From: Fibrobacter sp.
GTDB lineage: Bacteria; Fibrobacterota; Chitinivibrionia; Chitinivibrionales; Chitinispirillaceae
Length of the DNA stretch: 49,242 bases
Assembly: GCA_012523595.1 (NCBI GenBank)
Contig: JAAYIG010000158.1
Coordinates: 1-49,242 of the forward strand
Reading direction: 5' to 3'
The first letter of the stretch is position 1. Every line of letters starts with the position of its first letter. Below are positions 1,626-49,242 of the stretch, one piece after another. A program made the translations under genes and the position numbers. The notes beneath the pieces are model-generated. The model was not told where the DNA came from. It was given only the letters and a program-made list of their open reading frames with translations, and made no database searches.

Positions 1626-1919
1626 TTCACCCCGGAGATGAATTACGGAAAAACCGCCGGGCAAACCCTCCTCTTACCTATATATATGTATATGCATTTT
1701 CTATCGAGGAACCCGGATTAGGAGCTAAGCTTAAGCCCAAAAAAGAGTAAAAAAGTAGTCCGTCCCTTGCCGAACTCTTTCCATTTTTCCTCCCCGAACC
1801 CGGAATTATTCCCCCTCCTGGAGATTTGAATGCCTTATACCCTATGATTTCCATAAAAGTAAAAACATAGTCCGTCCCCTGGCAGGACAAAAAAGTAAAA
1901 AAGCAGTCCGTCCCTTTTT
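1465..1919 (+). repeat. Four copies of an A-run plus AGTCCGTCCC motif
   Basis: Copies lie near 1465-1484, 1746-1766, 1865-1880 and 1890-1917. Each is an A-rich run, then (A/C)(G/T)AGTCCGTCCC and a C/T tail. Another copy, in reverse orientation, is at 48722-48745 and one more at 49051-49074. I recall similar intergenic motifs in other phyla near REP-associated tyrosine transposases, but no such gene is in this window. Confidence 0.6.
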
Positions 1920-1939: not shown

Positions 1940-1968
1940 TTGACATTCTCCCCATAATAAAGTATTCT
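1940..1968 (+). promoter_or_regulatory. Sigma70-like promoter of the dcw operon
   Basis: TTGACA at 1940-1945 is a perfect -35 box. Seventeen bases later TATTCT at 1963-1968 is an acceptable -10 box. Transcription would start around 1975, inside the first MraZ-type repeat. The position and spacing make this the likely main promoter for mraZ and the genes after it. Confidence 0.75.
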
Positions 1969-1970
1969 AA

Positions 1971-2004
1971 TGGGTAATTGTAGGTAATAGTGGGTAATTG
2001 TGGG
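1971..2004 (+). promoter_or_regulatory. MraZ operator: four TGGG-type repeats at 10-bp steps
   Basis: TGGG at 1971, TAGG at 1981, TGGG at 1991 and TGGG at 2001 are spaced exactly 10 bp apart, and the first three are followed by TAATTG or TAATAG. MraZ is known to bind TGGG direct repeats with a short spacer just upstream of its own gene. The repeats cover the likely transcription start and the ribosome site of mraZ, so binding would block initiation. The second copy is imperfect. Autoregulation is inferred from this layout. Confidence 0.85.
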
Positions 2005-2011
2005 GGAAATT

Positions 2012-2464
2012 ATGGGACAGTTCCACGGAAGGTTTGACTACTCCATCGACAATAAGGGGAGAGTCAACATTCCAGCGAAGTTCCGCAAATCGATGAGTCC
2101 GCAGGCCAACGAGACTTTTATTATTTGTCGTGCGCCCAATAACTGCCTGCGCGCATACCCCCGTGATCTGTGGGATGTCTACGAGGCAGAGCTTGCCTCC
2201 AGACCCGAAACACCCGAAACACTGAGACATAAAAGACTCCTCTACAATACACTATCCGAATCAACACTTGACGCTCAGGGAAGGATCACCCTGAGCCCTG
2301 CGCAAATGTCAATAGCTGGAATCACCAAGGATGTCTCTCTTGTGGGTCATGCCAATTACCTGGAGATCTGGGACACTGCCCGCTACGATGAGTACCTGGG
2401 TGCCGATGATGATTTCGACACAGTCTTCTTCCAGTCAGTCGAAAGCAGGTTACCGGCAAAATGA
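2012..2464 (+). CDS. mraZ: Transcriptional regulator MraZ
   Basis: About 150 residues with two SpoVT/AbrB-like halves, the MraZ arrangement. Each half has its signature: DNKGRVNIPAKFR near the N-terminus and DAQGRITLSPAQ in the second half. MraZ is a ring-forming DNA-binding repressor or activator of the division and cell wall cluster. A GTG at 2000 would give a protein four residues longer, but ATG at 2012 has GGGGGA at 2002-2007 just ahead of it and gives the usual N-terminus, so I chose it. It is the first gene of the operon, and its stop overlaps the rsmH start in ATGA. Four TGGG-type repeats lie upstream. Confidence 0.95.
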   Translation: MGQFHGRFDYSIDNKGRVNIPAKFRKSMSPQANETFIICRAPNNCLRAYPRDLWDVYEAELASRPETPETLRHKRLLYNTLSESTLDAQGRITLSPAQMSIAGITKDVSLVGHANYLEIWDTARYDEYLGADDDFDTVFFQSVESRLPAK

Positions 2465-3393
2465 ACAGAGAATTCTATCACGAACCTGTTCTGAGGGATG
2501 AAGTTACGGGGCTGCTTGTAACCAGAAAAGACGGCGTTTATGTGGATTGCACCATGGGCGGCGGAGGACACTTCAGGGCTCTGGCTGAGAAACTGGATTC
2601 CAATGCGACTCTTATCGGTATCGACCGCGACATAGATGCCGTAAACTGGAACAAGTCTCATGCTGTAAAGAGTGATGCCGCTCAGATTATCGAACAGGAG
2701 CGGTTCTCTCAATTCAACAAGGTGCTTGACAAGCATGACATTGGTGCTGTGGATGGATTCCTGCTCGACCTCGGGCTCTCATCTTTTCAGATCGACAGCA
2801 CCGAGCGCGGTTTCAGCTATATGCGCGACAGTGAACTTGACATGAGAATGAGTGCCGATGATGAAACCACCGCTGCCTCTCTTCTGGAAAGAATGAGTGA
2901 GGAGGAGCTTTCGGATATCCTTTCCCGCTATGGTGAGATAAGAAATCCCTCACGCATGGCCAGGGCTATCAAGTCCTGCCCGGAGCTCAAGACATCAAGC
3001 GATCTCCGTGAGTGTCTCAGCAGAGAGTACGGGCATCTCGATGTAAAGATAATCGCCAGGGTGTTTCAATCCCTGCGCATAGCTGTAAATGATGAGCTGG
3101 GTGAACTGAGGAGATTTCTGGACAAGGTGGTTGGTTTTCTCAGAGCCGGAGGACGGCTGGCTGTGATAGCATACCATTCGCTTGAGGACCGGATGGTCAA
3201 GGAGTTTATGAGAGAGCAGGAGCAGAGTTGCATTTGTCCGCCGGGTTTACCGGTGTGCAAATGTAATAAACCTGTACTGCTTAAGCGGATAACTAAAGGT
3301 GCTGTCAAACCCTCCGAGGAGGAGATCAGGAGAAATCCGCGTTCCCGCAGCGCCCGTCTCAGAGTCGCGGAAAGAACGGCGGTCGCATTATGA
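2461..3393 (+). CDS. rsmH: 16S rRNA (cytosine(1402)-N4)-methyltransferase RsmH
   Basis: 310 residues, the normal length for RsmH (MraW), which methylates C1402 of 16S rRNA with S-adenosylmethionine. The SAM-binding loop DCTMGGGGH lies at 29-37, LLDLGLSS at 101-108, the family block FQSLRIAVNDELGEL at 202-216 and the basic NPRSRSARLR at the C-terminus. A small cysteine cluster (C257, C259, C266, C268) is typical. The start overlaps mraZ by four bases (ATGA), implying translational coupling. It is the second gene in most dcw clusters. Confidence 0.97.
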   Translation: MNREFYHEPVLRDEVTGLLVTRKDGVYVDCTMGGGGHFRALAEKLDSNATLIGIDRDIDAVNWNKSHAVKSDAAQIIEQERFSQFNKVLDKHDIGAVDGFLLDLGLSSFQIDSTERGFSYMRDSELDMRMSADDETTAASLLERMSEEELSDILSRYGEIRNPSRMARAIKSCPELKTSSDLRECLSREYGHLDVKIIARVFQSLRIAVNDELGELRRFLDKVVGFLRAGGRLAVIAYHSLEDRMVKEFMREQEQSCICPPGLPVCKCNKPVLLKRITKGAVKPSEEEIRRNPRSRSARLRVAERTAVAL

Positions 3394-3413
3394 ATAAGCG
3401 AAAAGAGGAATCA

Positions 3414-3788
3414 ATGCTCAAACCAATTATCCGTTTCCGTTCCATGCTCCTCTGGGTAGCGATGCTCTCCATTATGATCTCCGGACCGCTTCTGGCAGTC
3501 TGGAAACAGGTGTATATCAATAATGCATCGATCCGGATGAGCGCAATGGCTGATTCCCTGGTTGTACTGAAAAAAGAGGAAGCTACATTGCGGCTTATGG
3601 TTCAAAGGTACTCCTCTACGGCGAGAATCGAGCAGTTTGCAAGAGAGGCACTGTCTTTAGAGTACCCGGTTTCAAAGCAGATTGTGATTGTAGGTACTCC
3701 TGAGAAGTCAAAGAATCTGAAAATTCTCTACAGTCCAAAGGAGCTTCTGGCGTTTCTGAAAAGGACTTTTTACGGGGACAAGGGCTGA
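3414..3788 (+). CDS. ftsL: Cell division protein FtsL
   Basis: A small single-pass membrane protein. A short cytoplasmic start is followed by one membrane helix (SMLLWVAMLSIMISGPLLAV) and then a periplasmic segment likely to form a coiled coil. This matches FtsL, which with FtsB and FtsQ activates septal peptidoglycan synthesis. The sequence itself is poorly conserved, so the call rests on size, topology and position between rsmH and ftsI. An upstream ATG at 3390 overlaps rsmH but has no clear ribosome site. ATG at 3414 has AGAGGA four bases before it, so I prefer it. The stop overlaps the ftsI start. Confidence 0.85.
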   Translation: MLKPIIRFRSMLLWVAMLSIMISGPLLAVWKQVYINNASIRMSAMADSLVVLKKEEATLRLMVQRYSSTARIEQFAREALSLEYPVSKQIVIVGTPEKSKNLKILYSPKELLAFLKRTFYGDKG

Positions 3789-5740
3789 TGAATCAGTTCA
3801 GGCTGCGCTTGTACTTTATCTCTGTACTGCTCTCTCTGGGCGGAGTTCTCATCATTGCACGCCTCTTTTCGATTCAGATTCTCGAAAGTAAAAGATACGC
3901 AGAGAGGAGCCGTGACCAGACCCAGCATCGCCATATCCTCACAGCCCAGCGGGGATCTATTCTTGACAGGCGAGGGGCAGCGCTCGCCTCCAGCATTGAA
4001 CATTCCATCTCGGTCAAGCCTGAAGTGCTGGGAGTGAATGCCTCAGGGCAGCGCCAGGCACGGGTAAAAAGGGTGTATCCCCTGGGGGACATCGCCGGGC
4101 CTCTTCTGGGTTATGTAGGCACCGACGGATACGGGCTTGGCGGGGTTGAATTTGCCTTTGATAATTTCCTTCGGGGCGAGGATGGATGGACAATACTGCA
4201 GAAGGATGGCAGAAACAAGAAGTACCGCAAAATCGGACTCCCGTCCAAGGAACCACGCAACGGTTACAACCTGATACTGTCAATTGACAGCGATATACAG
4301 AAGATAGTCCAGACTGTCCTGCGTCAGACTGTAAGCAACCTGAATGCGAAATCAGGGGTCTGCATTGTCATGGATCCTCACAGCGGCAGAGTCCTGGCGA
4401 TGGCAAACGAGCCTTCATTCAACCCCAATGTGCCGCTGCACTACTCTCTCGCACAGCGTCAGAACAGATGTATCAGCGCCAACTATGAGCCGGGTTCCAC
4501 ATTCAAACTGATCACCGCTGCCGCCGCTCTTCAGGAAAACATAAAGAAAGAAAGCGACATTATCTTCGGCAATAACGGTGCATTTCAGGTTTACGATCAG
4601 GTAATAAGGGATCATGTCCCATACGGTTACCTTACTTTCACAGATGCACTCGCGAAATCGAGCAATGTCTGTTTTGCCAAGATCGCCAATGATGTGGGCA
4701 ATGAGACTCTTTACAGGTACACCAGAGATTTCGGATTCGGGACAAAGACCGGAATAGACCTTCCCGGTGAGGAGAGCGGCATTGTTCATCCTGTGCGGTC
4801 CTGGTCAGGGCGTACCAGGGTCACGATGGCTATCGGGCAGGAGATTATGGTGACTTTTCAGCAGATGGTACTTCCTTTCGCTGCTGTGGCAAATGGTGGA
4901 ATTCTTGTAACCCCCAGAATTTACGAAAGAATAGAGAGCAGAAACGGGGAGATTATTGACAGCGCGGAATACAGGCCTGTTCGGCGTATTCTCTCCGAGG
5001 ATGTGGCATCGAGACTCAGAGTAATGCTTAGGAAAGTTGTTGACGAGGGGACAGGAAAGAACGCCGCCATTGAAGGGGTTTCGGTTGCGGGCAAAACAGG
5101 AACCGCACAGAAACCGGATTCCGGCACCTATTCCCAGATCCGTTCATGGTCTTCGTTTATCGGGTTTGTTCCTGCGGAAAACCCGGTTCTTCTCTGCGGT
5201 GTGATGATCGATGAGCCGGCCAGAGGAGAGATGGGCGGAGTGGCTGCAGCGCCTGCATTCCGCAAGATGATGTCTCAGATCATAAGTCATCCTGAGCTTG
5301 AGTTTGCACAGAAGATTCTCAGGAAAAACAAGGCTGAGCCGGAGCAGAAGAAGCAGGACAAAAAGGAAACAGTCGTTCCTTTTCTCTGCGGGCTTGACAG
5401 GAAGAGAGCTGAACAGTTGGCTGATTCAGCGGGGATACGCTGCAGGTTAAGCGGCAATGGCTCCAAGGTCACCTACCAGATCCCGTCACCAGGAACAGTG
5501 CTCAGGAGCGGATCTGAGGTGGTTCTCTATTTTGATCTTCCTGAGAGCAGGCCGGGTGTTAAGGTTGAGGTGCCATCATGCGTGGGTAAAGACCTGCGTG
5601 ATGCGATTAACATGGTGAATCTTCGCGGGCTCAAGCCGTTTGCTGTAGGTGCTGGAACGGTTCGCAGGCAGAATCCTGCTCAAGGCCTGCATGTCAAATC
5701 GGCGGAGGTTTGTACGCTGTTTTGTTCGTTTGAGGGTTAA
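3788..5740 (+). CDS. ftsI: Septal peptidoglycan transpeptidase (FtsI/PBP3 family) with two PASTA domains
   Basis: A class B penicillin-binding protein of 650 residues. An N-terminal membrane anchor (about 9-30) is followed by the dimerisation domain and then the transpeptidase domain. Its active-site motifs are STFK at 237-240, SSN at 291-293 and KTGTAQ at 436-441. Two PASTA domains follow, about 529-582 and 593-648, after a charged linker. It cross-links septal peptidoglycan together with FtsW. PASTA tails are usual in Gram-positive SpoVD/PBP2x and in some FCB-group FtsI proteins, but absent from E. coli FtsI. The start overlaps ftsL (TGATG). Confidence 0.95.
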   Translation: MNQFRLRLYFISVLLSLGGVLIIARLFSIQILESKRYAERSRDQTQHRHILTAQRGSILDRRGAALASSIEHSISVKPEVLGVNASGQRQARVKRVYPLGDIAGPLLGYVGTDGYGLGGVEFAFDNFLRGEDGWTILQKDGRNKKYRKIGLPSKEPRNGYNLILSIDSDIQKIVQTVLRQTVSNLNAKSGVCIVMDPHSGRVLAMANEPSFNPNVPLHYSLAQRQNRCISANYEPGSTFKLITAAAALQENIKKESDIIFGNNGAFQVYDQVIRDHVPYGYLTFTDALAKSSNVCFAKIANDVGNETLYRYTRDFGFGTKTGIDLPGEESGIVHPVRSWSGRTRVTMAIGQEIMVTFQQMVLPFAAVANGGILVTPRIYERIESRNGEIIDSAEYRPVRRILSEDVASRLRVMLRKVVDEGTGKNAAIEGVSVAGKTGTAQKPDSGTYSQIRSWSSFIGFVPAENPVLLCGVMIDEPARGEMGGVAAAPAFRKMMSQIISHPELEFAQKILRKNKAEPEQKKQDKKETVVPFLCGLDRKRAEQLADSAGIRCRLSGNGSKVTYQIPSPGTVLRSGSEVVLYFDLPESRPGVKVEVPSCVGKDLRDAINMVNLRGLKPFAVGAGTVRRQNPAQGLHVKSAEVCTLFCSFEG

Positions 5741-5744
5741 TGTG

Positions 5745-5798
5745 ATGAATAAGATAGATGCCGCTACGAAATTAAGAGAGCTGAATGGATTTTACTGA
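5745..5798 (+). CDS. 17-codon ORF coupled to murE (possible leader or coupling ORF)
   Basis: Between ftsI and murE, an ATG at 5745 opens a reading frame MNKIDAATKLRELNGFY that stops with TGA at 5796-5798, overlapping the murE ATG as TGATG. GAGGG at 5732-5736 is a plausible ribosome site eight bases ahead, whereas murE has only a weak one of its own. The peptide may be translated only to deliver ribosomes to murE. Its sequence resembles nothing I know. The frame could also be chance or the remnant of an N-terminus. Confidence 0.35.
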   Translation: MNKIDAATKLRELNGFY

Positions 5799-7270
5799 TG
5801 CGGTTAAATGAATTACTCAAGAGATCTGCACTGCAGGTGATTGACAGATCGGGAGAGGCCGATCCGGAGATCCTGGATATCTGTTATGATTCCAGGAAAG
5901 CCGGACCCGCATCGCTTTTTGTTTCCATTCCCGGTACCCGTCTTGACGGTGATTTGTTTATCGCCGATGCGCTCTCCAGGGGTGCTGCCGCTGTGATTTC
6001 TGAGAAGCTCCATCCGGGTCTGGCTGTGCCATGTATAAAGAGTGTCAATTTAAGATCATCACTTGGTAAACTTGGAGCGGCTCTGTGGGAAGTGGACTTT
6101 TCCGGGATGATCTGTGTTGGGATCACCGGTACAAACGGAAAGACAACAACAGCTCATCTTTACGAACAGCTCCTCTGCCAGAGGATTCCATCAGAACAGA
6201 TCTGGATGTTCGGCACAGTGGATTTTCATCTTGGGGGAAAACGGATCCCTGCCAGCCATACGACACCAGAAGCACTCGATATTCTCAGATGGATCGGGGA
6301 ATCGGAGCGCAGGCCATCCGGGCTTGTTATGGAGGTTTCATCGCACTCTCTTTCCCTAGACAGGATCGGAGGGCTTCTTTACAATACCGCGGTCTGGACC
6401 AATCTCACACAGGATCACCTCGATTTTCATCATGACATGGAATCCTATTATCAGTCAAAAAAGCGCCTTTTTACAGACTATATGGTTTCCGGAGCACCGG
6501 CTGTAATCAATATCGATGATGCCTGGGGTGCGCGTCTGGCGGAAGAACTGACAGGTGCCAATTGCGTGACTTACGGCCGTAATGAAAAAGCACGGGTCAG
6601 AATCGTTTCCTGGGACTGTGACTGGAGCGGCTGCAGGGTGGAAATCGAGGAGAACGGCAGCAGAGTCACATTCAGTTCTGCTCTGAAGGGCTTTTTCAAC
6701 ATTTACAACATGGCATCGATGATTGCCGGGGCACGCGCGATGGGTTTTACTGATGAGCAGATCCAAAGTGCGTTTGACAATGTGAAGACAGTACCCGGAA
6801 GAATGGACAGGGTAGATGCTGATGTTCCTTTTTCGGTAGTAATCGACTATGCGCATACTCCCGATGCTCTGGAGAATGTTCTTAAAGCAGCCCGTCCTCT
6901 CACTAAGGGGAGACTGATATGTGTTTTTGGATGTGGTGGAGACAGGGACAGGACAAAGCGTCCGATTATGGGCAGGATAGTATCGGAAAACAGTGATGAG
7001 GCAATAGTGACATCGGATAATCCCCGCACGGAGAAACCTCAGGCGATAATAGATCAGATCCTCGATGGTATACCTCTGGATTTTCCACACATGGTCTGCA
7101 CAGAAAGACGCTCTGCCATAAAGCAGGCACTCTCTATTGCCAGGGAGGGTGATTGTGTGATTATTGCGGGAAAAGGACATGAGAACTATCAGGAAATTAA
7201 CGGCGTAAAGCACCATTTTGACGACAGAGAAGTTGTAATGGAGCTGCTTGCGCATGGAGATAAAAATTGA
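5798..7270 (+). CDS. murE: UDP-MurNAc-tripeptide ligase MurE, meso-DAP type
   Basis: 490 residues, the full MurE length. It adds the third amino acid to UDP-MurNAc-L-Ala-D-Glu using ATP. The P-loop GTNGKTTT lies at 111-118, the central-domain SHTTPE at 153-158, the likely carbamylated lysine in SKKRLF near 221 and the AGKGHE motif near 457. DNPR at 407-410 is the known signature for meso-diaminopimelate, so the wall is DAP-type. The start is preceded by a 17-codon ORF ending in TGATG. The 3' end overlaps murF. Confidence 0.97.
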   Translation: MRLNELLKRSALQVIDRSGEADPEILDICYDSRKAGPASLFVSIPGTRLDGDLFIADALSRGAAAVISEKLHPGLAVPCIKSVNLRSSLGKLGAALWEVDFSGMICVGITGTNGKTTTAHLYEQLLCQRIPSEQIWMFGTVDFHLGGKRIPASHTTPEALDILRWIGESERRPSGLVMEVSSHSLSLDRIGGLLYNTAVWTNLTQDHLDFHHDMESYYQSKKRLFTDYMVSGAPAVINIDDAWGARLAEELTGANCVTYGRNEKARVRIVSWDCDWSGCRVEIEENGSRVTFSSALKGFFNIYNMASMIAGARAMGFTDEQIQSAFDNVKTVPGRMDRVDADVPFSVVIDYAHTPDALENVLKAARPLTKGRLICVFGCGGDRDRTKRPIMGRIVSENSDEAIVTSDNPRTEKPQAIIDQILDGIPLDFPHMVCTERRSAIKQALSIAREGDCVIIAGKGHENYQEINGVKHHFDDREVVMELLAHGDKN

Positions 7271-8658
7271 GCGGACACGATAAGAACAGTACAACACTAA
7301 CGCTGGGCTTACTCATAGAGTGGTGCGGCGGGAAATCTCAAATCGGGGAGCGTCAGAGAAAGATGCCTGCCGGGATGGTATGTAATGATTCCCGCAAGAT
7401 CGGACCCGGCGATGTGTTTGTGGCTATAAAGACAGAGAATGATGACGGGCACAGGTATGTGGAGGCAGCGTTCAAGGCCGGTGCCTCTGCGGCCATAGTT
7501 GACAGAAAGGCAGAGCTTTCACTCAGCGCCGCGCAGAAAAAGAAGCTTATTCTTGTTTCCGATCCGGTCAAGGCGGTTCAGAAGGCCGCTTCACGTTACA
7601 GGAAAGAGATGGGGATACTTTTCATAGGTATCACAGGCTCGAGTGGTAAGACCACAACCCGCACCTTTATCTCATCGGTGCTTCGTCAGGGGATGAGTGT
7701 CGGGGAGACATTTGGAAACTGGAACAATCATATCGGCGTGCCGATGAGTATCCTGAAGTTTTGTGGAAACGAGTGGGCCGGGGTTATCGAGATGGGTGCC
7801 AACCATGTGGGAGAGATTCACGAGTTATCACTTATCACAAAACCGGATATCGCCGTTATTACAAACATCGGATACGGACATGTTGGGCTGTTTGGTTCGA
7901 TTGAGAACACATGTAAAGCGAAATTCGAGATAGCTGACGGATTGAGCCGTGGAGGTTTTCTGCTCTTAAACGGCGATGATCCCCGTCTGGTAAAGGGAGT
8001 ACGGGAGAGAGGGCTTGCGGCGGAGTTTTACGGATTGTCATCCCGCTGTTCAGTACGTCCTGAAAACCTGAAGGTGACTCCTGACGGGTTGAGTTTTGAT
8101 GTTGACGGGAGCCGCTACAGTCTTCAGATGCCCGGCCGTCACTTTGTATATGCCGCTCTTCCCGCGATTTTTCTGGGACGCCGCTGCGGGATACCGGAAA
8201 AAATGATAATAAGTGCGCTTGCGGATCAGAGACCGGTATCGATGCGGGGTGGGATAGAGAAGAAAAAAGGAGTGTCATTCATAGTTGACTGTTACAACGC
8301 CAATCCGTCATCGATGAGCAGCGGGCTGGCATACCTGGCTGATGTATCCAGACCGGGCAGCAGGGTTGCCATTGTCGGGGATATGCTCGAGCTCGGGAAA
8401 TACTCTGTTAAGCTTCACAGGGAGCTTGGCAGACAGATAGTGAAAGCTGGTGTGAAAAAGCTGATTGCAGTGGGACAGTTCAGCCGTGAGGTAGGCAGGG
8501 CGGCAGAGAAGGAAGGGTTACCGTCGGGGAAGATATTTACAGTTGAAAATGCCGGGTCAGCGGTGGATATTGCCAGAAGAGTTCTCTGTAAAGGGGACAC
8601 AGTTCTTCTGAAAGGATCCCGCGGAATTTATCTGGAAACCATTTTCGAGAAGTTTTAG
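7267..8658 (+). CDS. murF: UDP-MurNAc-tripeptide D-alanyl-D-alanine ligase MurF
   Basis: 463 residues, normal for MurF, which joins D-Ala-D-Ala to the tripeptide precursor. The P-loop GSSGKTTT lies at 124-131, NWNNHIG at 151-157, EMGANH at 175-180 and IGYGHVG at 201-207. The start is an uncommon TTG whose TTGA overlaps the murE stop; GGAGA at 7256-7260 sits six bases ahead, which supports it. Normally mraY follows murF, but here murD begins two bases after the murF stop. Confidence 0.95.
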   Translation: MSGHDKNSTTLTLGLLIEWCGGKSQIGERQRKMPAGMVCNDSRKIGPGDVFVAIKTENDDGHRYVEAAFKAGASAAIVDRKAELSLSAAQKKKLILVSDPVKAVQKAASRYRKEMGILFIGITGSSGKTTTRTFISSVLRQGMSVGETFGNWNNHIGVPMSILKFCGNEWAGVIEMGANHVGEIHELSLITKPDIAVITNIGYGHVGLFGSIENTCKAKFEIADGLSRGGFLLLNGDDPRLVKGVRERGLAAEFYGLSSRCSVRPENLKVTPDGLSFDVDGSRYSLQMPGRHFVYAALPAIFLGRRCGIPEKMIISALADQRPVSMRGGIEKKKGVSFIVDCYNANPSSMSSGLAYLADVSRPGSRVAIVGDMLELGKYSVKLHRELGRQIVKAGVKKLIAVGQFSREVGRAAEKEGLPSGKIFTVENAGSAVDIARRVLCKGDTVLLKGSRGIYLETIFEKF

Positions 8659-8660
8659 AT

Positions 8661-10046
8661 ATGAGATTTGATTTCAGAAACAGTTATCCTGAGAAGGTTT
8701 CTATAATAGGGGCAGCCAGAAGCGGTCTGGCTGCTGCGGCTTTTTTCTCTCAGAAGGGCACGAAGGTTTTTATCAGTGACACATGTGAAGAGAATAAACT
8801 GGAGTTGATTCTGACTGACCAGTTACACGATAAAGTCGAATACGAAGCGGGCGGACACACAGAGAGGATTCTTGACAGCCAGCTTATCGTGCTTTCGCCG
8901 GGAGTCCGTTCAGACCTGCCGATTCTTTTAAAGGCAAAAGAGATGGGAATTCCGGTCTGGTCTGAGATGGAACTGGGATTTCAGGCAAGTGCCGCGACAT
9001 TTCTTGCGGTGACCGGTTCTACAGGGAAAAGCACCACAGTGTCTCTTCTTGGTGCCGCACTTAAAGCTGCGGGACTGCCTTCGGTTGTGGCCGGCAATAT
9101 AGGGATTCCTGTGATAAGTGAAGTGCCACAGCTTCCGGAGAATGCTTTTGTCGCTGCTGAGGTGTCAAGTTTTCAGCTTGAGAATATCGAGGGATTCAGG
9201 CCGCTTGGTGCTGCAGTGCTCAATCTGATGAAGAATCATCTGGACCGGTACAGCAGCAAAGAGGATTATTACAATGCCAAGAAAGAGATCGCCAGAAATT
9301 TCACTAAGGAAAATTACCTTGTATTAAACGCCAATGATCCTCTTTTGAGGGAATGGGCAGCATCGATGCAGGAGAGGACAAATGTGGTCTATTTCGGAGG
9401 GGATGTTCCGGGATGTGACTGCTTCTATTATGAAAACGGTACGATCCGTTTCAGGCTCCGCGGTGAGAGCGGTGTAATTCCTGACGTTGATAAAATGCGC
9501 ATAAAGGGAAAGCACAATTATGAGAACGCCTGTGCTGCCGCTGCCCTGGCTGTTGCTGCAGGAGTTGACAAAGATGTCATAAGTCAGGGATTCTGCGATT
9601 TTGAGGGTTTGCCGCACAGGCTGGAGTATGTGGCGGAACTCGATGGAGTGAAGTTTTATAATGATTCCAAATCTACTACAGCAGAGTCGGTGGCTGTAGC
9701 GGTTTCAGCTTTTCCGGGCGGAGTTCATCTTATTGCCGGTGGCAGGGACAAGGGATGCGATTTCGCCGTTGTCAATGAATATATCAGAAAGCATGTAAGT
9801 GATATCTGTCTGATTGGTGAGGCGGCTGACAGGATGCAGGGTATCTGGGATGGGCTTGCTCCGATAAACAGAGCCGGGACACTGCATGAGGCGATACTGA
9901 AATCTATCAGATGTGCTGCAAGCGGTGATGTGGTTGTATTTTCGCCGGGTTGTTCGAGTTTTGACATGTTTATCAGTTATGAAGAGCGCGGGAATGTTTT
10001 CAAGCAACTGGTACGGGAACTGGTCAGTGAGAGGGCGATATCATGA
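8661..10046 (+). CDS. murD: UDP-MurNAc-L-alanine D-glutamate ligase MurD
   Basis: 461 residues. MurD adds D-glutamate to UDP-MurNAc-L-alanine. The N-terminal nucleotide-binding domain has SIIGAARSG, the ATP loop VTGSTGKSTT lies at 117-126, EVSSFQLE at 167-174, NHLDRY at 192-197 and the likely carbamylated lysine near 208. The C-terminal part has the expected YNDSKSTT. It starts two bases after murF and overlaps ftsW by four bases, so it is part of one transcript. Confidence 0.96.
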   Translation: MRFDFRNSYPEKVSIIGAARSGLAAAAFFSQKGTKVFISDTCEENKLELILTDQLHDKVEYEAGGHTERILDSQLIVLSPGVRSDLPILLKAKEMGIPVWSEMELGFQASAATFLAVTGSTGKSTTVSLLGAALKAAGLPSVVAGNIGIPVISEVPQLPENAFVAAEVSSFQLENIEGFRPLGAAVLNLMKNHLDRYSSKEDYYNAKKEIARNFTKENYLVLNANDPLLREWAASMQERTNVVYFGGDVPGCDCFYYENGTIRFRLRGESGVIPDVDKMRIKGKHNYENACAAAALAVAAGVDKDVISQGFCDFEGLPHRLEYVAELDGVKFYNDSKSTTAESVAVAVSAFPGGVHLIAGGRDKGCDFAVVNEYIRKHVSDICLIGEAADRMQGIWDGLAPINRAGTLHEAILKSIRCAASGDVVVFSPGCSSFDMFISYEERGNVFKQLVRELVSERAIS

Positions 10047-11209
10047 GCAACAGAATGGCAAAGATGGATATCGGTCTCTTTACGGCGCTTCTTATCATGC
10101 TGGGATTCGGGATAATCTTTGTTTACAGCTCATCATTTGCCCTGGCACAGTACCGTTTCGGTGGATCTGACTTCTTCCTCTCCCGTCAGACGATCAGGGC
10201 TGTTGTCGCGATAATCAGTTTCATGGTTTTCATAAATGTCGATTATCATCTGTGGGGACGTCTGAGCAACCTTATTTACGTGATCGCGGTCGGGATGCTT
10301 GTCTTTGTGCTTTTCCTTCCTGACAGCCATGCTGTAAACGGGGCAAAAAGATGGATCTCCCTGGGACCGGTGAGTTTTCAGGTTTCCGATGTTGCAAGGA
10401 TGGCTATTATACTGCTTCTGGCAAGGAGCTGTGAGAAGGCGGGTGCAGAGATCAGGGAGTGGTCAGTACTTCTGACGAACCTGCTGAAAATCGGCCTTGT
10501 GTGTATCTTGATTCTGCTTGAGCCTAATTTTTCCACCTGTATGATACTTGCACTTACAGGTCTGGCGATTCTCTTTCTTTCAGGCGCAAAGTTTTTACAT
10601 CTGGCCTCACTGTTTCTGGCTGTGGTTCCGGTGGCTGCTTTTCTGGTGCTTAAGACACCTTATAGGCGTGCGCGTCTTACCGGATTTCTTCAGATGTCGG
10701 ATAATACCTCAAGTCTTGGTTATCAGACTTACCAGTCGCTTATCGGACTTGGAAACGGCGGCATTTTCGGGGTTGGCATTGGTAAAGGTGAGCAGAAATT
10801 CTTCTACCTTCCTGAGCCTCATACCGACTTTGCCATTTCGATAATGGGTGAGGAGATAGGGTTTCTGGGGCTGATGATCATAATGGCTTTGTTTGCGTTC
10901 ATTGTGTACAGGGGTATGAGAATAGCGCTCCGTGCTCCGGACAGGATGGGCCAGTTGATGGCTTTCGGGTTCTCTTTTGTAATTGCGTCCTATGTGATTG
11001 TTCATGCCTGTGTGGGAACCGGATTGATTCCTACAACAGGGGTTCCTCTTCCGTTTTTAAGTTACGGGGGAATGAGTCTGATTTTCATGATGAGCAGCAT
11101 GGGTATTCTTTTAAATATTTCGAGTCAGTCGCGGTTTGACACAATGCAGCCAAGGTTCAGGCCTGTCTTGCCGGTGTCAAACAATACGGATGTAAAAAGG
11201 AAAGCATGA
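10043..11209 (+). CDS. ftsW: Septal peptidoglycan glycosyltransferase FtsW (SEDS family)
   Basis: 388 residues of largely hydrophobic sequence with about ten membrane helices. SEDS hallmarks are visible: FVYSSSFALA early, then EPHTDFAISIMGEEIGF in the large periplasmic loop and VPLPFLSYGG near the end. FtsW polymerises glycan strands at the septum with FtsI. It overlaps both neighbours by four bases (ATGA). murG usually sits after ftsW, but here murC follows directly. Confidence 0.96.
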   Translation: MSNRMAKMDIGLFTALLIMLGFGIIFVYSSSFALAQYRFGGSDFFLSRQTIRAVVAIISFMVFINVDYHLWGRLSNLIYVIAVGMLVFVLFLPDSHAVNGAKRWISLGPVSFQVSDVARMAIILLLARSCEKAGAEIREWSVLLTNLLKIGLVCILILLEPNFSTCMILALTGLAILFLSGAKFLHLASLFLAVVPVAAFLVLKTPYRRARLTGFLQMSDNTSSLGYQTYQSLIGLGNGGIFGVGIGKGEQKFFYLPEPHTDFAISIMGEEIGFLGLMIIMALFAFIVYRGMRIALRAPDRMGQLMAFGFSFVIASYVIVHACVGTGLIPTTGVPLPFLSYGGMSLIFMMSSMGILLNISSQSRFDTMQPRFRPVLPVSNNTDVKRKA

Positions 11210-12576
11210 AGGATTTTTCCAGAAAAATTCATCTGGTCGGAATCGGAGGGGCAGGGATGTGTCCACTTGCCGAGGTATTGCTTTCCCGCGGACATCAATT
11301 GACTGGAAGCGACAGGCAGAAATCCTCCGCGACAGAGCGCCTTCAGTCCCTGGGGATCGCGGTGCAGTACGATCATTCACCAAAGTATCTGAAAGAAGCC
11401 GAACTGCTGGTTTATTCAAGCGCGATAAGAGAAGACAATCCTGAGAGAGTGTATGCCGCGGAACATGGTATACCATCCATGCGCCGTGCAGAGGTCCTTG
11501 GACAACTGATGAGAGCCCATTACACGATTTGTATTGCGGGTACGCATGGAAAGACAACAACGACCTCTCTGACTGGTGCGGTGTTTCAGGATGCAGGGAT
11601 TGATCCTGTGGTGTTAGTGGGTGGTGTTATCCGTGGCGCGGAATCACACGCGGTAACTGGTACCGGAAATATCATGGTGGCTGAAGCGGATGAATATGAC
11701 AGATCATTTCTGGCCATGTATCCCTCTGTTGCTGTGATCACAAACATCGATGCGGATCATCTGGACTGTTATGGAAGTCTGGAAAATATCAAGGATGCTT
11801 TTGTGAGTTTTGCAGCAAGGGTGCCGTTTTTCGGAGCCGTTGTGGCTTGTAAAGATGATCCGGGAGTAAGGGATATTCTTCCGAGAATAAGCGGTAATGT
11901 TATCACATACGGGATAGAGAGTGAAAGTGATTACACTGCAGAAAATATCACTTTTACATCCGGAAAGCCCTCATTTACTGTGTATAAAAGAGGCACTGAA
12001 CTGGGTGAGATCAAACTTAATATTCCGGGCATGCACAATGTGCTCAATTCGCTGGCTGTTATCGCGGTGGCTGACCGTACCGGAATCTCTTTTGAAGTAA
12101 TACAGAAGAGTCTTGCAAAGTGTCAGGGTGCCCGGAGGAGGTTTGAAATAGCCGGTGAGGTAAACGGGATAACCGTTATCGATGATTACGCGCATCATCC
12201 CGGAGAGATCAGGGCAACGATAGACGCGGCGAGAAGATGCGGATACAAGAGAATAGTGGCGGTTTTCCAGCCTCATCTTTACTCCCGGACAAGAGAGCTT
12301 ATGGATGGTTTTGTGGAGAGTCTCTCTGAGGCGGACAGTGTTTACGTTACAGGAATTTACAAGGCAAGAGAGGAAGCGGTTCCCGGAGTTTCGTCAGGGC
12401 TTATAGTCGAGAAACTGAAGAGCGGAAATCACAGATCTGCTGTATATGTACAGGAATCCGGAGATCTTGTCGGGATTTTACAGAAAGATCTCAGAGCTGG
12501 AGACGCTGTGATATTGATGGGTGCTGGTGATATCTGGCAGAGCGCTGTGAAACTGGTAGAGGCGTTAAATGGCTAA
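11206..12576 (+). CDS. murC: UDP-MurNAc L-alanine ligase MurC
   Basis: 456 residues, the usual MurC size. It adds the first amino acid, L-alanine, to UDP-MurNAc. Visible motifs are HLVGIGGAGM at 9-18, the P-loop GTHGKTTT at 112-119, EADEYDRSF and NIDADHLD in the central domain and DDYAHHP in the C-terminal part. The start overlaps ftsW (ATGA) and the end overlaps ftsQ by eight bases. Neither murB nor ddl, its common neighbours, lies between murC and ftsQ. Confidence 0.97.
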   Translation: MKDFSRKIHLVGIGGAGMCPLAEVLLSRGHQLTGSDRQKSSATERLQSLGIAVQYDHSPKYLKEAELLVYSSAIREDNPERVYAAEHGIPSMRRAEVLGQLMRAHYTICIAGTHGKTTTTSLTGAVFQDAGIDPVVLVGGVIRGAESHAVTGTGNIMVAEADEYDRSFLAMYPSVAVITNIDADHLDCYGSLENIKDAFVSFAARVPFFGAVVACKDDPGVRDILPRISGNVITYGIESESDYTAENITFTSGKPSFTVYKRGTELGEIKLNIPGMHNVLNSLAVIAVADRTGISFEVIQKSLAKCQGARRRFEIAGEVNGITVIDDYAHHPGEIRATIDAARRCGYKRIVAVFQPHLYSRTRELMDGFVESLSEADSVYVTGIYKAREEAVPGVSSGLIVEKLKSGNHRSAVYVQESGDLVGILQKDLRAGDAVILMGAGDIWQSAVKLVEALNG

Positions 12577-13432
12577 GAGAGTAGGAGCGAACAACCGTAA
12601 AAGGGCTGTTACCAGGAGAGCGGAGATTCGCAAAGGGCTGCGGAAGTCAATCGTGCGTATCGGCTCGGCTCTCTTTATCTGTACTGCGGTGGGAGGGCTG
12701 CTGTATGCAGGGACGATCGGGTTTTCAGAGCTCAGGAACCGGATTGAGAAGTCGGATCTGTTAAATGTAAAGGAAATATCGGTAAAGGGGAGTCTCAGGA
12801 CAGAGGAACAGAAGATAATCGCCCGTTGCGGATTGAGGCCTGGGATGAAGCTTTATTCCATAAAGAAAGATGTGGTGAAATCGGCAGTCAGTGCTGATCC
12901 GTGGGTTAAAAGTGTGAAGCTGAAAAGAAAGCTTAACGGCAGGGTGATAATAGCGATTGCAGAGCGTGAACCAGTTGCGCTGGTAAATTTCGGCACGATT
13001 ATGCAGGTTGATGATGAGGGTGTGCTTCTGCCTCTGCCCAATGGATCTGTGTCTTTGCTTCCTCTTGTTTCCGGACTGCGGGACACGGTGGATGAGGCCG
13101 GCAGGAGAGTTATTGACAAGAAGGGAACAGAAAGGCTCAATGATTTTCTCAGGGAAGCGGGGGAGGTTGATGGCGGGCTTTTTTCCAGGTTTTCTCAGCT
13201 TGACCTGTCGCATGACTGCATGGTGCGTCTGGTGCTCAAGGGGGTTCCATCGGTGATCGATATTGGGACAGAAGATGTAGTTGAACGCTTAAATCAACTG
13301 CTTGAGATCGAGAAAATCCTCAGCTCGGAAAAGTTTCTTCCTGCCAGAATAAATCTGTGTTATCAGAATCTTGCTTATGTGACGCAGAGAAGTGAGGTGG
13401 AAGAGGAGATTGTGCGGTCAGTGGCTGATTAG
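12569..13432 (+). CDS. ftsQ: Cell division protein FtsQ
   Basis: 287 residues. A basic cytoplasmic head is followed by a membrane helix (about 30-52), then a POTRA domain with LNVKEISVKGSLRTEE and DPWVKSVKLKRKL, then a beta domain. This is the FtsQ/DivIB layout. It is a periplasmic scaffold that recruits FtsB and FtsL to the septum. Sequence conservation is low, but the topology and its place between murC and ftsA are standard. It overlaps murC by eight bases. Confidence 0.92.
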   Translation: MAKRVGANNRKRAVTRRAEIRKGLRKSIVRIGSALFICTAVGGLLYAGTIGFSELRNRIEKSDLLNVKEISVKGSLRTEEQKIIARCGLRPGMKLYSIKKDVVKSAVSADPWVKSVKLKRKLNGRVIIAIAEREPVALVNFGTIMQVDDEGVLLPLPNGSVSLLPLVSGLRDTVDEAGRRVIDKKGTERLNDFLREAGEVDGGLFSRFSQLDLSHDCMVRLVLKGVPSVIDIGTEDVVERLNQLLEIEKILSSEKFLPARINLCYQNLAYVTQRSEVEEEIVRSVAD

Positions 13433-13491
13433 GTGTAAAGAGGGACAGGAAAAGAAAAAGAGTGTTTGAAATATCGTTGATGGAGGTTTAA

Positions 13492-14727
13492 ATGGAAGAG
13501 AATGTAATTGTCGGGCTGGATATAGGTACTACAAAAATCGCCTGTATAATCTCTGAAGTCGATTCAAACGGAGAGTTGAAGATTATCGGAGTAGGAGTAC
13601 ATCCCTCCGATGGTCTGCGGAAGGGTGTTGTTGTCAATATCGACAAGACTGTCCGTTCGATACAGAAGGCGGTTGAAGAAGCGGAGTTGATGGCCGGTGT
13701 TGATGTGGACTCTGTGTGGGTGGGTATAGCGGGAGATCATATCAGGGCTATAAACAGCAGAGGTGTTGTGGCGATTTCCCGTGATGACAACGAGATAACG
13801 GAGCTCGATGTACTGAGGGCGAAGGACGCCGCAAAGGCTGTTTCCATTCCCATGGACAGGGAGATTCTGCATGTTATTCCTCAGGAGTATGTTGTTGACG
13901 AGCAGAAGGGGATAAAGGATCCCATAGGGATGTGCGGTGTGAGACTTGAGACCCAGGTGCATATCATCACCGGAGCCGTGACATCTGCACAGAATATCTA
14001 CAAGAGTGTTGACAAAGCAGGTCTGAAGGTGATCGACCTTGTGCTGGAGCCGCTTGCGTCCTGTTATTCGGTGCTGGAGAAAGATGAGAAGGAGCTTGGG
14101 GTAGCGCTGGTTGACATGGGTGGGGGCACTACGGATATAGCCATATATTTCGACGAGAGTATCCGTCATACCGCAGTGGTAGGTCTGGGCGGGAAAAACG
14201 TGACAAGTGATATAGCGATCGGTATCCGCACCCCTATCGAGAGGGCAGAGGAGATAAAGAAACAGTATGGATGTGCTTATTCATCGCTGGTAAAAGGAAA
14301 CGAGTATATAAGTGTTCCGGGTGTTGGCGGAAGGGAGCAGCGAGAAGTTTCCAAGGCAGTGCTTGCTTCGATAATAGAGCCGCGTCTGGAGGAGATTCTC
14401 TCCCTTACTTTCCGTGAGATAAAGCGTACCGAGTATGCGGATATGCTTGGAGCGGGCATAGTACTTACCGGGGGAGCATCGATGATGGAGGGGATACAGG
14501 AGCTGGCTGAGAAGGTGTTTATGATGCCGGTAAAGCTGGGTGTTCCATCAGGATTCGGCGGGCTTACAGAAGCTGCCAAGTCTCCGATTCATGCCACGGG
14601 TGTGGGGCTTTGTATGTACGGTCTTGAGCAGATGAAGAACAGGAAGGGTAAGAAGAGTCTTGGAGGCGAGGATAATTTCAAGAAGATTTTTGACAAGATG
14701 AAATCATGGGTAAAGGAATTTTTCTGA
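13492..14727 (+). CDS. ftsA: Cell division protein FtsA
   Basis: 411 residues of the actin/Hsp70 ATPase fold. GLDIGTTKIACII at the start is the phosphate-1 loop, LVDMGGGTTDIAIY is phosphate-2 and GIVLTGGASMMEG the adenosine loop. The tail (FKKIFDKMKSWVKEFF) is an amphipathic helix that would bind the membrane. FtsA tethers FtsZ to the inner membrane. A strong GGAGG lies ahead of the ATG. The 59-bp gap after ftsQ breaks the run of overlaps, so a second promoter there is possible but not visible. Confidence 0.97.
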   Translation: MEENVIVGLDIGTTKIACIISEVDSNGELKIIGVGVHPSDGLRKGVVVNIDKTVRSIQKAVEEAELMAGVDVDSVWVGIAGDHIRAINSRGVVAISRDDNEITELDVLRAKDAAKAVSIPMDREILHVIPQEYVVDEQKGIKDPIGMCGVRLETQVHIITGAVTSAQNIYKSVDKAGLKVIDLVLEPLASCYSVLEKDEKELGVALVDMGGGTTDIAIYFDESIRHTAVVGLGGKNVTSDIAIGIRTPIERAEEIKKQYGCAYSSLVKGNEYISVPGVGGREQREVSKAVLASIIEPRLEEILSLTFREIKRTEYADMLGAGIVLTGGASMMEGIQELAEKVFMMPVKLGVPSGFGGLTEAAKSPIHATGVGLCMYGLEQMKNRKGKKSLGGEDNFKKIFDKMKSWVKEFF

Positions 14728-14774
14728 GAACATAATATGCACCAATTATTAACAATAAACCTCAGGAGGGGCTT

Positions 14775-16115
14775 ATGGTTTTCACGTTAGACGAGACGTT
14801 TGATACCGTAGCGAAGATGAAAGTTATCGGCGTGGGGGGAGGCGGAGGAAATGCAGTAAACCGCATGATTTCCGCGGGTCTCACCGGTGTTGAGTTTATC
14901 GCTGTCAATACTGACGCGATGGCACTTGACAACAACAAGGCAGCTCACCGGATTCAGATCGGAGAGAAGGTGACAAAGGGTCTTGGAGCAGGCGCCAATC
15001 CGGAAGTGGGCCGTCTTGCAATGGAAGAGGACAGAGACAAGATCGCTTCTGTTCTTGACGGAGCGGATATGGTTTTTATCACCGGTGGAATGGGCGGCGG
15101 TACCGGAACCGGAGGAGCGCCTGTTGTGGCGGAGATCGCTCAGGAGATGGGAATTCTTACGGTCGCCGTCGTTACACGTCCTTTCCTTTTTGAAGGCAAG
15201 GTGCGTGACCGGAATGCACGGAAGGGGATCGATGATCTGCGGAATGCGGTTGACACAATCATAGTGATACCGAACCAGAAACTGCTCTCTATTGTTGATA
15301 GAAGCACTTCCCTGATCGATGCTTTCAAGACAGCCGACGATGTTCTCTATCAGGCGACCAAGGGTATTTCTGACCTGATTTCTGTTCATGGTCTGGTCAA
15401 TCTCGATTTCGCCGATGTGAAGACGATCATGAAGGGTATGGGCGACGCTCTCATGGGAACAGGGTATGCAGAAGGAGAAAACAGGGCGGTTATGGCTGCG
15501 GACAGTGCTATTCACAGCCCGCTTCTGGACGATATCTCGATTACCGGCGCACGTGGAATACTGATCAATATTACAGGTGGAGAGGATATGACACTCTACG
15601 ATGTAAGCGATGCTACTCAGACGGTCTACGATGCAGTTGGTGAGGATTCCGAAACGAATATTATCTTCGGTGCGGTTACAGATGCGAGCATGAACGGTAA
15701 GATCAGAGTTACTGTTATTGCTACCGGTTTCAATGAAGAAACTTTGGAGAAGAGGGATGCTGCTCCCAGGATGGCTTTAAAGCTTCCGGGTCAGAAAAGG
15801 GATGCGGAAAAAAGTGTAGAGCAGATGTCAATTTCTCTTTCCATGCCTGCCAAAGCAGAGGTTCAGGAGAAGGCCGAGGCGCCGGCTGCAGCAGTTGAGC
15901 AGCCAAAGAGTGCAAATGAGCAGAACACGGAAGTATCTGTTACTGAAGATGCTGCATCGCATCAGCCTTCCAACGGCAATTCGATCGAATTTCCTCCGTT
16001 TCTCAAGAAGGAAGCTATCCGTAAAGAGCGGGTTTATGTTTCCAAGGGGAGTGTAATAACCCAGTATGAGGACGATATGGATGTTCCGACATTTTTGCGC
16101 AAGCAGATGCAGTGA
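14775..16115 (+). CDS. ftsZ: Cell division GTPase FtsZ
   Basis: 446 residues. The tubulin signature [10 protein letters not shown] lies at 104-113, the N-terminal loop [10 protein letters not shown] at 21-30 and the catalytic T7-loop block [11 protein letters not shown] around 209-219. After the GTPase core comes a long alanine- and glutamate-rich linker (about 330-430) and the conserved C-terminal peptide [14 protein letters not shown], which binds FtsA. FtsZ forms the division ring. AGGAGGGG lies just ahead of the start. It is the last gene of the operon. Confidence 0.98.
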
Positions 16116-48580: not shown

Positions 48581-49242
48581 AACATAAGCTACAGATGTAC
48601 TGATTATCGCTGCTCTCAGAGCGGTTTCAATATTGAAGAGAATAGGGCTGGTCCTTTGATGTGTCTAAAGTTCTATGTTGTTTTTAATACGTATGTAGAA
48701 TGTAGATAGTGTCTGAAAATTAGGGGACGGACTATTTTTTTGCTTTTAAAAGCGTTTAAGTTCTGTTTAGATTTCATTGATGAAATTTATTGATAAAGGG
48801 GAGTGTAGTAGGTGGTTTAGGCGTATTGAAGGTTATCATCGAAAATGTATTTTAGTTAATCCTGTTTTGAAAATGGAAATAAGAAAGTATTCCTTTTAGA
48901 TTTTCATTTTTTCACCCCGGAGGTGACATAGCGACTAAACGATTTTTCAATTGAACACCTTTTCTCATATCCAGAAATCATCCCCAGATCAACTTAATCA
49001 AATTGAGAATTCCCCCTTAAGGCGGTTATCATATTCTTCAATTTCACAAAAAGGAAAAAGAAAGTCCGTCCCCTGCAATTTCATTTTTTCACCCCGGAGG
49101 TGACACAGCGACTAAACGATTTTTCAAATTGAACACCTTTTCTCATATCCAGAAATCATCCCCAGATCAACTTAATCAAATTGAGAATTCCCCCTTGAGG
49201 TGGTTATCATCTTCTTCAATTTCACAAAAAGGAAAAAGAAAG
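48581..49242. other. Gene-poor right end with repeats
   Basis: No real gene is visible on either strand apart from a possible N-terminal extension of the small membrane protein. It holds a reversed CCGTCCCC motif (48722-48745), two copies of the 17-bp palindrome and the tandem 177-bp duplication. It continues past the window. Confidence 0.65.
48904..49242 (+). repeat. Tandem duplication with 177-bp period
   Basis: Copy 1 is 48904-49080 and copy 2 is 49081 to beyond 49242. They match closely: TTCACCCCGGAGGTGACA near the start, CCAGAAATCATCCCCAGATC in the middle, and AATTCCCCCTTAAGG against AATTCCCCCTTGAGG later. Copy 2 has one extra A in TTTTTCAAATTGA. Each copy begins with the 17-bp palindrome family member and ends with GGAAAAAGAAAGTCCGTCCCC. 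The low divergence points to a recent duplication, and more copies may follow off the window edge. Confidence 0.9.

Follow-up and report, generated by a model that had tools for sequence, protein, structure and literature searches.

A predicted MraZ operator of four 10-bp-spaced repeats at the head of the dcw cluster in a Fibrobacterota genome

Results

The putative operator and its regulator

Four short direct repeats lying between a promoter and mraZ very probably form an MraZ operator, a new example in the Fibrobacterota of a known element. They were read in a stretch of 49,242 nucleotides (the window) from a 4.1-Mb genome of this phylum. The features on which the prediction is built are:

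1940..1945 (+), -35 hexamer TTGACA of the dcw promoter, read in the sequence and conserved in position in most family genomes
1963..1968 (+), -10 hexamer TATTCT after a 17-bp spacer, read in the sequence; TATTCT or TATTAT is kept in the relatives
1970..1974 (+), putative MraZ box 1, ATGGG (TGGG at 1971-1974); most family relatives have ATGGG or AGGGG there, equally far from the -10
1980..1984 (+), putative MraZ box 2, GTAGG (TAGG at 1981-1984), a conserved imperfect copy shared by nine genomes of the family from seven genera
1990..1994 (+), putative MraZ box 3, perfect GTGGG (TGGG at 1991-1994); complete in 20 of the order's 24 arrays
2000..2004 (+), putative MraZ box 4, GTGGG (TGGG at 2001-2004); complete in 16 of those 24 arrays
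2012..2464 (+), mraZ, ATG at 2012, 150 aa, the expected regulator of the boxes (PF02381, E 2.6e-24; TIGR00242 over cut-off)

The promoter TTGACA-17-TATTCT matches the consensus at 10 of 12 positions and was the top of six promoter-like sites in the 4 kb scanned. A sequence-only reading had placed this promoter and four repeats at 1971, 1981, 1991 and 2001, and all of these coordinates proved right on direct reading. Counting from the -10, transcription is expected to start at about 1974-1976, a stretch that box 1 overlaps, and box 4 runs into GGGGG at 2002-2006, the likely Shine-Dalgarno sequence; that repeats in 10-bp phase extend over the probable start of transcription and the ribosome site, also part of that reading, was thereby supported. 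The conserved word is GTGGG, which in the window is complete only in copies 3 and 4 (copy 1 being ATGGG and copy 2 GTAGG), and the repeat unit in the order is GTGGG followed by approximately TAATT.

The encoded MraZ carries two DXXXR motifs, DNKGR (residues 13-17) and DAQGR, and is 30% identical to E. coli MraZ with D-x-K-G-R aligned; TIGR00242 is an equivalog family. Solved MraZ structures were found among its relatives (9qlr, 9qlg, 9sx6, 1n0e), and the closest named records are metagenome assemblies labeled 'Fibrobacter sp.' (MraZ identity 75 and 90%). The site thus combines direct repeats with a TGGG/GTG core and a period of about 10 bp, a place at the start of dcw, after the promoter and before mraZ, repeats conserved ahead of mraZ in relatives, and a cognate MraZ with two DXXXR motifs. 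The earlier interpretation as an MraZ operator is accordingly one that ladder, cognate protein and relatives all favor at the level of prediction. By homology, we infer that MraZ would bind and repress at this predicted operator and that the start site would lie within it.

The ladder compared with chance

None of 20,000 dinucleotide shuffles of positions 1861-2011 reached even three steps of a TRGG ladder at pitch 10, the best shuffle having two, and the exact ladder of four is unique in the window as well as in the whole 4.1-Mb genome. An origin by chance or by compositional G-richness, contradicted both by these shuffles and by the conservation in relatives, has a virtually negligible probability. 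Elsewhere in the genome, sites with two mismatches were no commoner than with the reversed control, and a stricter three-box pattern, searched over the whole genome, matched solely at the mraZ locus. The mraZ of the window is the sole one in the genome, a second copy not being found there. A wider MraZ regulon in this genome was dropped from consideration, as there was neither a second array nor a second mraZ. On this evidence the dcw operon appears to be the only target of MraZ, within the detection range of the patterns used.

The dcw cluster and a neighboring dispersed repeat

Downstream of mraZ follows the dcw cluster, in which many neighboring genes overlap by a few bases:

2461..16115 (+), dcw cluster after mraZ
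2461-3393 (+), rsmH/mraW
3390-3788 (+), small ftsL-like ORF, without Pfam hit
3788-5740 (+), ftsI-type PBP with PASTA
5798-10046 (+), three Mur ligases, including a Mur ligase at 7267-8658 and a MurD-type ligase at 8661-10046
10043-11209 (+), ftsW
11206-12576 (+), Mur ligase (murC-like)
12569-13432 (+), ftsQ
13492-14727 (+), ftsA
14775-16115 (+), ftsZ

The PASTA domains of the ftsI-type PBP are at its C-terminus; such domains are better known in division PBPs of Gram-positives. Within 7267-12576, the Mur ligase directly adjoins the MurD-type ligase, followed by ftsW and the murC-like ligase. The junction of these two ligases leaves no space or ORF for mraY, and the same holds for murG at the junction of ftsW with the murC-like ligase; these are the positions at which mraY and murG usually sit in dcw clusters.

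A dispersed repeat, AAAGTAAAAAAGTAGTCCGTCCC, was observed just upstream of the dcw promoter and also at the other end of the window, at 1461-1483, 1744-1766, 1856-1878 and 1892-1914 (+), 48724-48746 (-) and 49050-49072 (+). The genome holds 81 copies (both strands, at most 3 mismatches), the reversed control none. Because there are ten Y1_Tnp-type transposase matches in the genome, one of them about 300 bp from a copy of the repeat, a REP/RAYT-like element is possible.

Conservation of the repeats in Fibrobacterota

The comparison covered the sequence upstream of mraZ in 55 Fibrobacterota genomes, among them every genome of the order that gave an mraZ match, 34 in all. Conserved 10-bp-spaced repeats in relatives had been set beforehand, in the sequence-only reading, as a check on the operator, and GTGG-type repeats at this spacing were indeed found upstream of mraZ across the phylum. 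Among 32 non-redundant genomes of the order, with the window's own genus left out, TGG pairs at a distance of 10 bp numbered 41 against 3.7 expected (z 18), with more peaks at 20 and 30 bp; in the rest of the phylum (17 genomes), the peaks were at 10, 20/21, 30/31 and 40/41 bp. Some relatives have degenerate arrays (G004, G011, G018 and G020), and the array is therefore not strictly required everywhere. In two related genomes (loci L027 of G019 and L029 of G022), a GC-rich insertion, GGACGGC(A/G)GCCTGCCGCCCGC, lies between the MraZ boxes and mraZ and stretches the distance from the -10 to the start codon to 90-114 nt.

Box 2 is a conserved imperfect copy

The four boxes are not equally close to GTGGG. 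The order offers 24 arrays whose register is clear. Perfect copies number 20 at box 3, 16 at box 4, 5 at box 1 and 3 at box 2, leaving 21 of these arrays with an imperfect second box. Box 3 was perfect and box 2 not in 20 arrays and the reverse held in three (sign test, 0.0005), or 13 versus 2 when counted by genus (p 0.007), although related genomes are not independent in either comparison. At box 2, GTAGG is invariant in nine genomes from seven genera of the family while the spacer positions vary; as these genomes were chosen for having GTAGG, the invariance expresses how widely the word is shared. They span about 3.6 amino-acid changes per column (MraZ+RsmH tree, branch sum by hand). Elsewhere in the same family box 2 reads GTGGG in G002 and G007, whose arrays are of other build, and GTGTG in G005.

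Could the TAGG copy simply be a decayed box without function in an otherwise genuine MraZ operator? GTAGG is a single substitution away from consensus, and boxes have been lost in some relatives. Decay nevertheless seems unlikely, as GTAGG is identical in the nine genomes over the divergence given above next to varying spacers, the GT of box 2 is retained in 22-23 of 24 arrays, and other lineages are imperfect through other letters (GTGTG, GTAGC, GTGTT, GTGCA). Box 2 rather looks held below consensus than decayed; judged from conservation only, box 1 would also be held below consensus, less strictly than box 2. An imperfect box 2 would fit weaker binding of MraZ close to the start site, a role in promoter escape, or avoidance of a quadruplex; a perfect one would create four G3 runs with N7 loops in many arrays. 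The earlier suggestion that TAGG may tune affinity is strengthened by this conservation insofar as the copy matters; that it would lower affinity is something we infer.

Helical register relative to the -10

Box 1 usually begins one base past the -10 hexamer in this order, at offset 8 counted from the first -10 base. The expected start site thus falls under box 1, and the leader under boxes 2-4. NTGG sites share one helical phase to the -10, with means modulo 10 of 7.2 in the order, 5.6 in family code f8 (labeled here 'Fibrobacteraceae-type') and 6.2 in f9-f11, register figures that are inflated by relatedness and that in f8 depend on predicted promoters, with some -10 sites picked by hand. 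The f8 register is filled at about -15/-14, -5/-4, +16/17 and +26/27, placing two boxes inside the predicted -35/-10 spacer. Loci of this type with GTGG boxes in the predicted spacer include L045, L048, L049 and L050, and an example of such a spacer is TTGCCA-TAGTGGTAGAAAGTGGG-TATATT. The filled slots differ by family: they follow the -10 in the window's order and in Fibrobacteraceae-type genomes are found also within the predicted -35/-10 spacer.

Discussion

Quadruplex or leader instead of protein boxes

A functional G-quadruplex has been reported in the mraZ promoter of Staphylococcus aureus (PMC11796246), and the G-runs of the window could by this precedent be a quadruplex rather than protein boxes. 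Their 10-bp pitch gives loops of seven, the canonical limit, and E. coli's own array fits the motif. The canonical motif of four G3+ runs with N1-7 loops, however, occurs in none of the 55 Fibrobacterota mraZ upstream regions, that of the window included; box 2 has only GG, many Fibrobacteraceae-type boxes are GTGGT, and what is conserved is GTGG at 10-bp pitch, T included, instead of G3 runs. We consider a promoter quadruplex highly improbable and rejected it on account of the motif missing from all 55 sequences. Alternatively, the repeats might work at the RNA level, through leader structure or by repeating a ribosome-binding sequence: boxes 2-4 would be transcribed as part of the leader, and the last of them shares bases with the likely Shine-Dalgarno sequence. 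We give this very little credence: a DNA pitch of 10 bp, a constant phase relative to the -10 and the Fibrobacteraceae-type boxes upstream of the -10 all point to DNA. A structured RNA leader was rejected, as the leader matched no Rfam family and its fold was no better than that of shuffles (z 0.82).

How the predicted operator might work

If the repeats are an MraZ operator, MraZ would repress its own operon by occluding polymerase. It would most likely nucleate on boxes 3 and 4, because box 2 and, less strictly, box 1 seem to be held below consensus, and the start site would be covered only at a high enough MraZ level. The 'strong' autoregulation of the sequence-only reading was not borne out: both boxes nearest the promoter are held short of consensus, a pattern that favors tuning over maximal binding. 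Tentatively, and as something possible rather than probable, we propose that the MraZ operator of Fibrobacterota consists of slots at 10-bp intervals in constant register with the -10, filled differently from family to family, and that the slot over the early transcribed region, box 2, is selectively kept imperfect by lineage-specific letters, setting a repression threshold or keeping the promoter escapable. Should the imperfect box 2 and the fixed register hold, these arrays would provide a natural operator series for testing oligomeric MraZ assembly on repeats.

Comparison with known MraZ sites

No published MraZ operator from Fibrobacterota was found. In Burkholderia cenocepacia, the dcw operator has four repeats with a 10-bp period (7 nt + 3 nt) past the -10 and over the transcription start, and gel shifts demonstrated, as for E. 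coli, that MraZ binds them (PMC7761207). The likeness to the window lies in these four 10-bp-period repeats of a dcw operon, downstream of the -10 and over the start, and is one by description, not letter by letter; the evidence there is gel shift, whereas the operator in the window is predicted from sequence.

The only outside reference for the array itself was E. coli K-12, where the sequence ahead of mraZ, GTGGGAAATTGTGGGGCAAAGTGGG, contains three TGGG and one GGGG at about the same pitch (for Pmra and its MraZ boxes, see Eraso et al., 2014, as cited in PMC8475190 and PMC7761207). In both systems TGGG boxes recur every 10 bp in the interval from promoter to mraZ, and their spacers are very similar (AAATTG, GCAAAG). 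In E. coli box 2 is perfect, while the window has GTAGG there, and its four boxes start directly past the -10. Four boxes in 10-bp phase, which had been singled out as notable, are thus not unusual, B. cenocepacia having four (PMC7761207) and E. coli K-12 a similar array.

The Mollicute MraZ site consists of AAAGTG[T/G] repeats (Fisunov et al., 2016, as cited in PMC8475190) and resembles that of the window in its direct repeats with a GTG core, its place before mraZ and its single chromosomal occurrence; flanks and organism differ. Repression by MraZ has been reported for E. coli, where it acts on dcw, and for M. genitalium (PMC8475190), and the sign of its regulation here could differ. The predicted site would extend the MraZ operator to Fibrobacterota with the same anatomy as in Proteobacteria, which suggests that control of dcw by MraZ is probably ancient.
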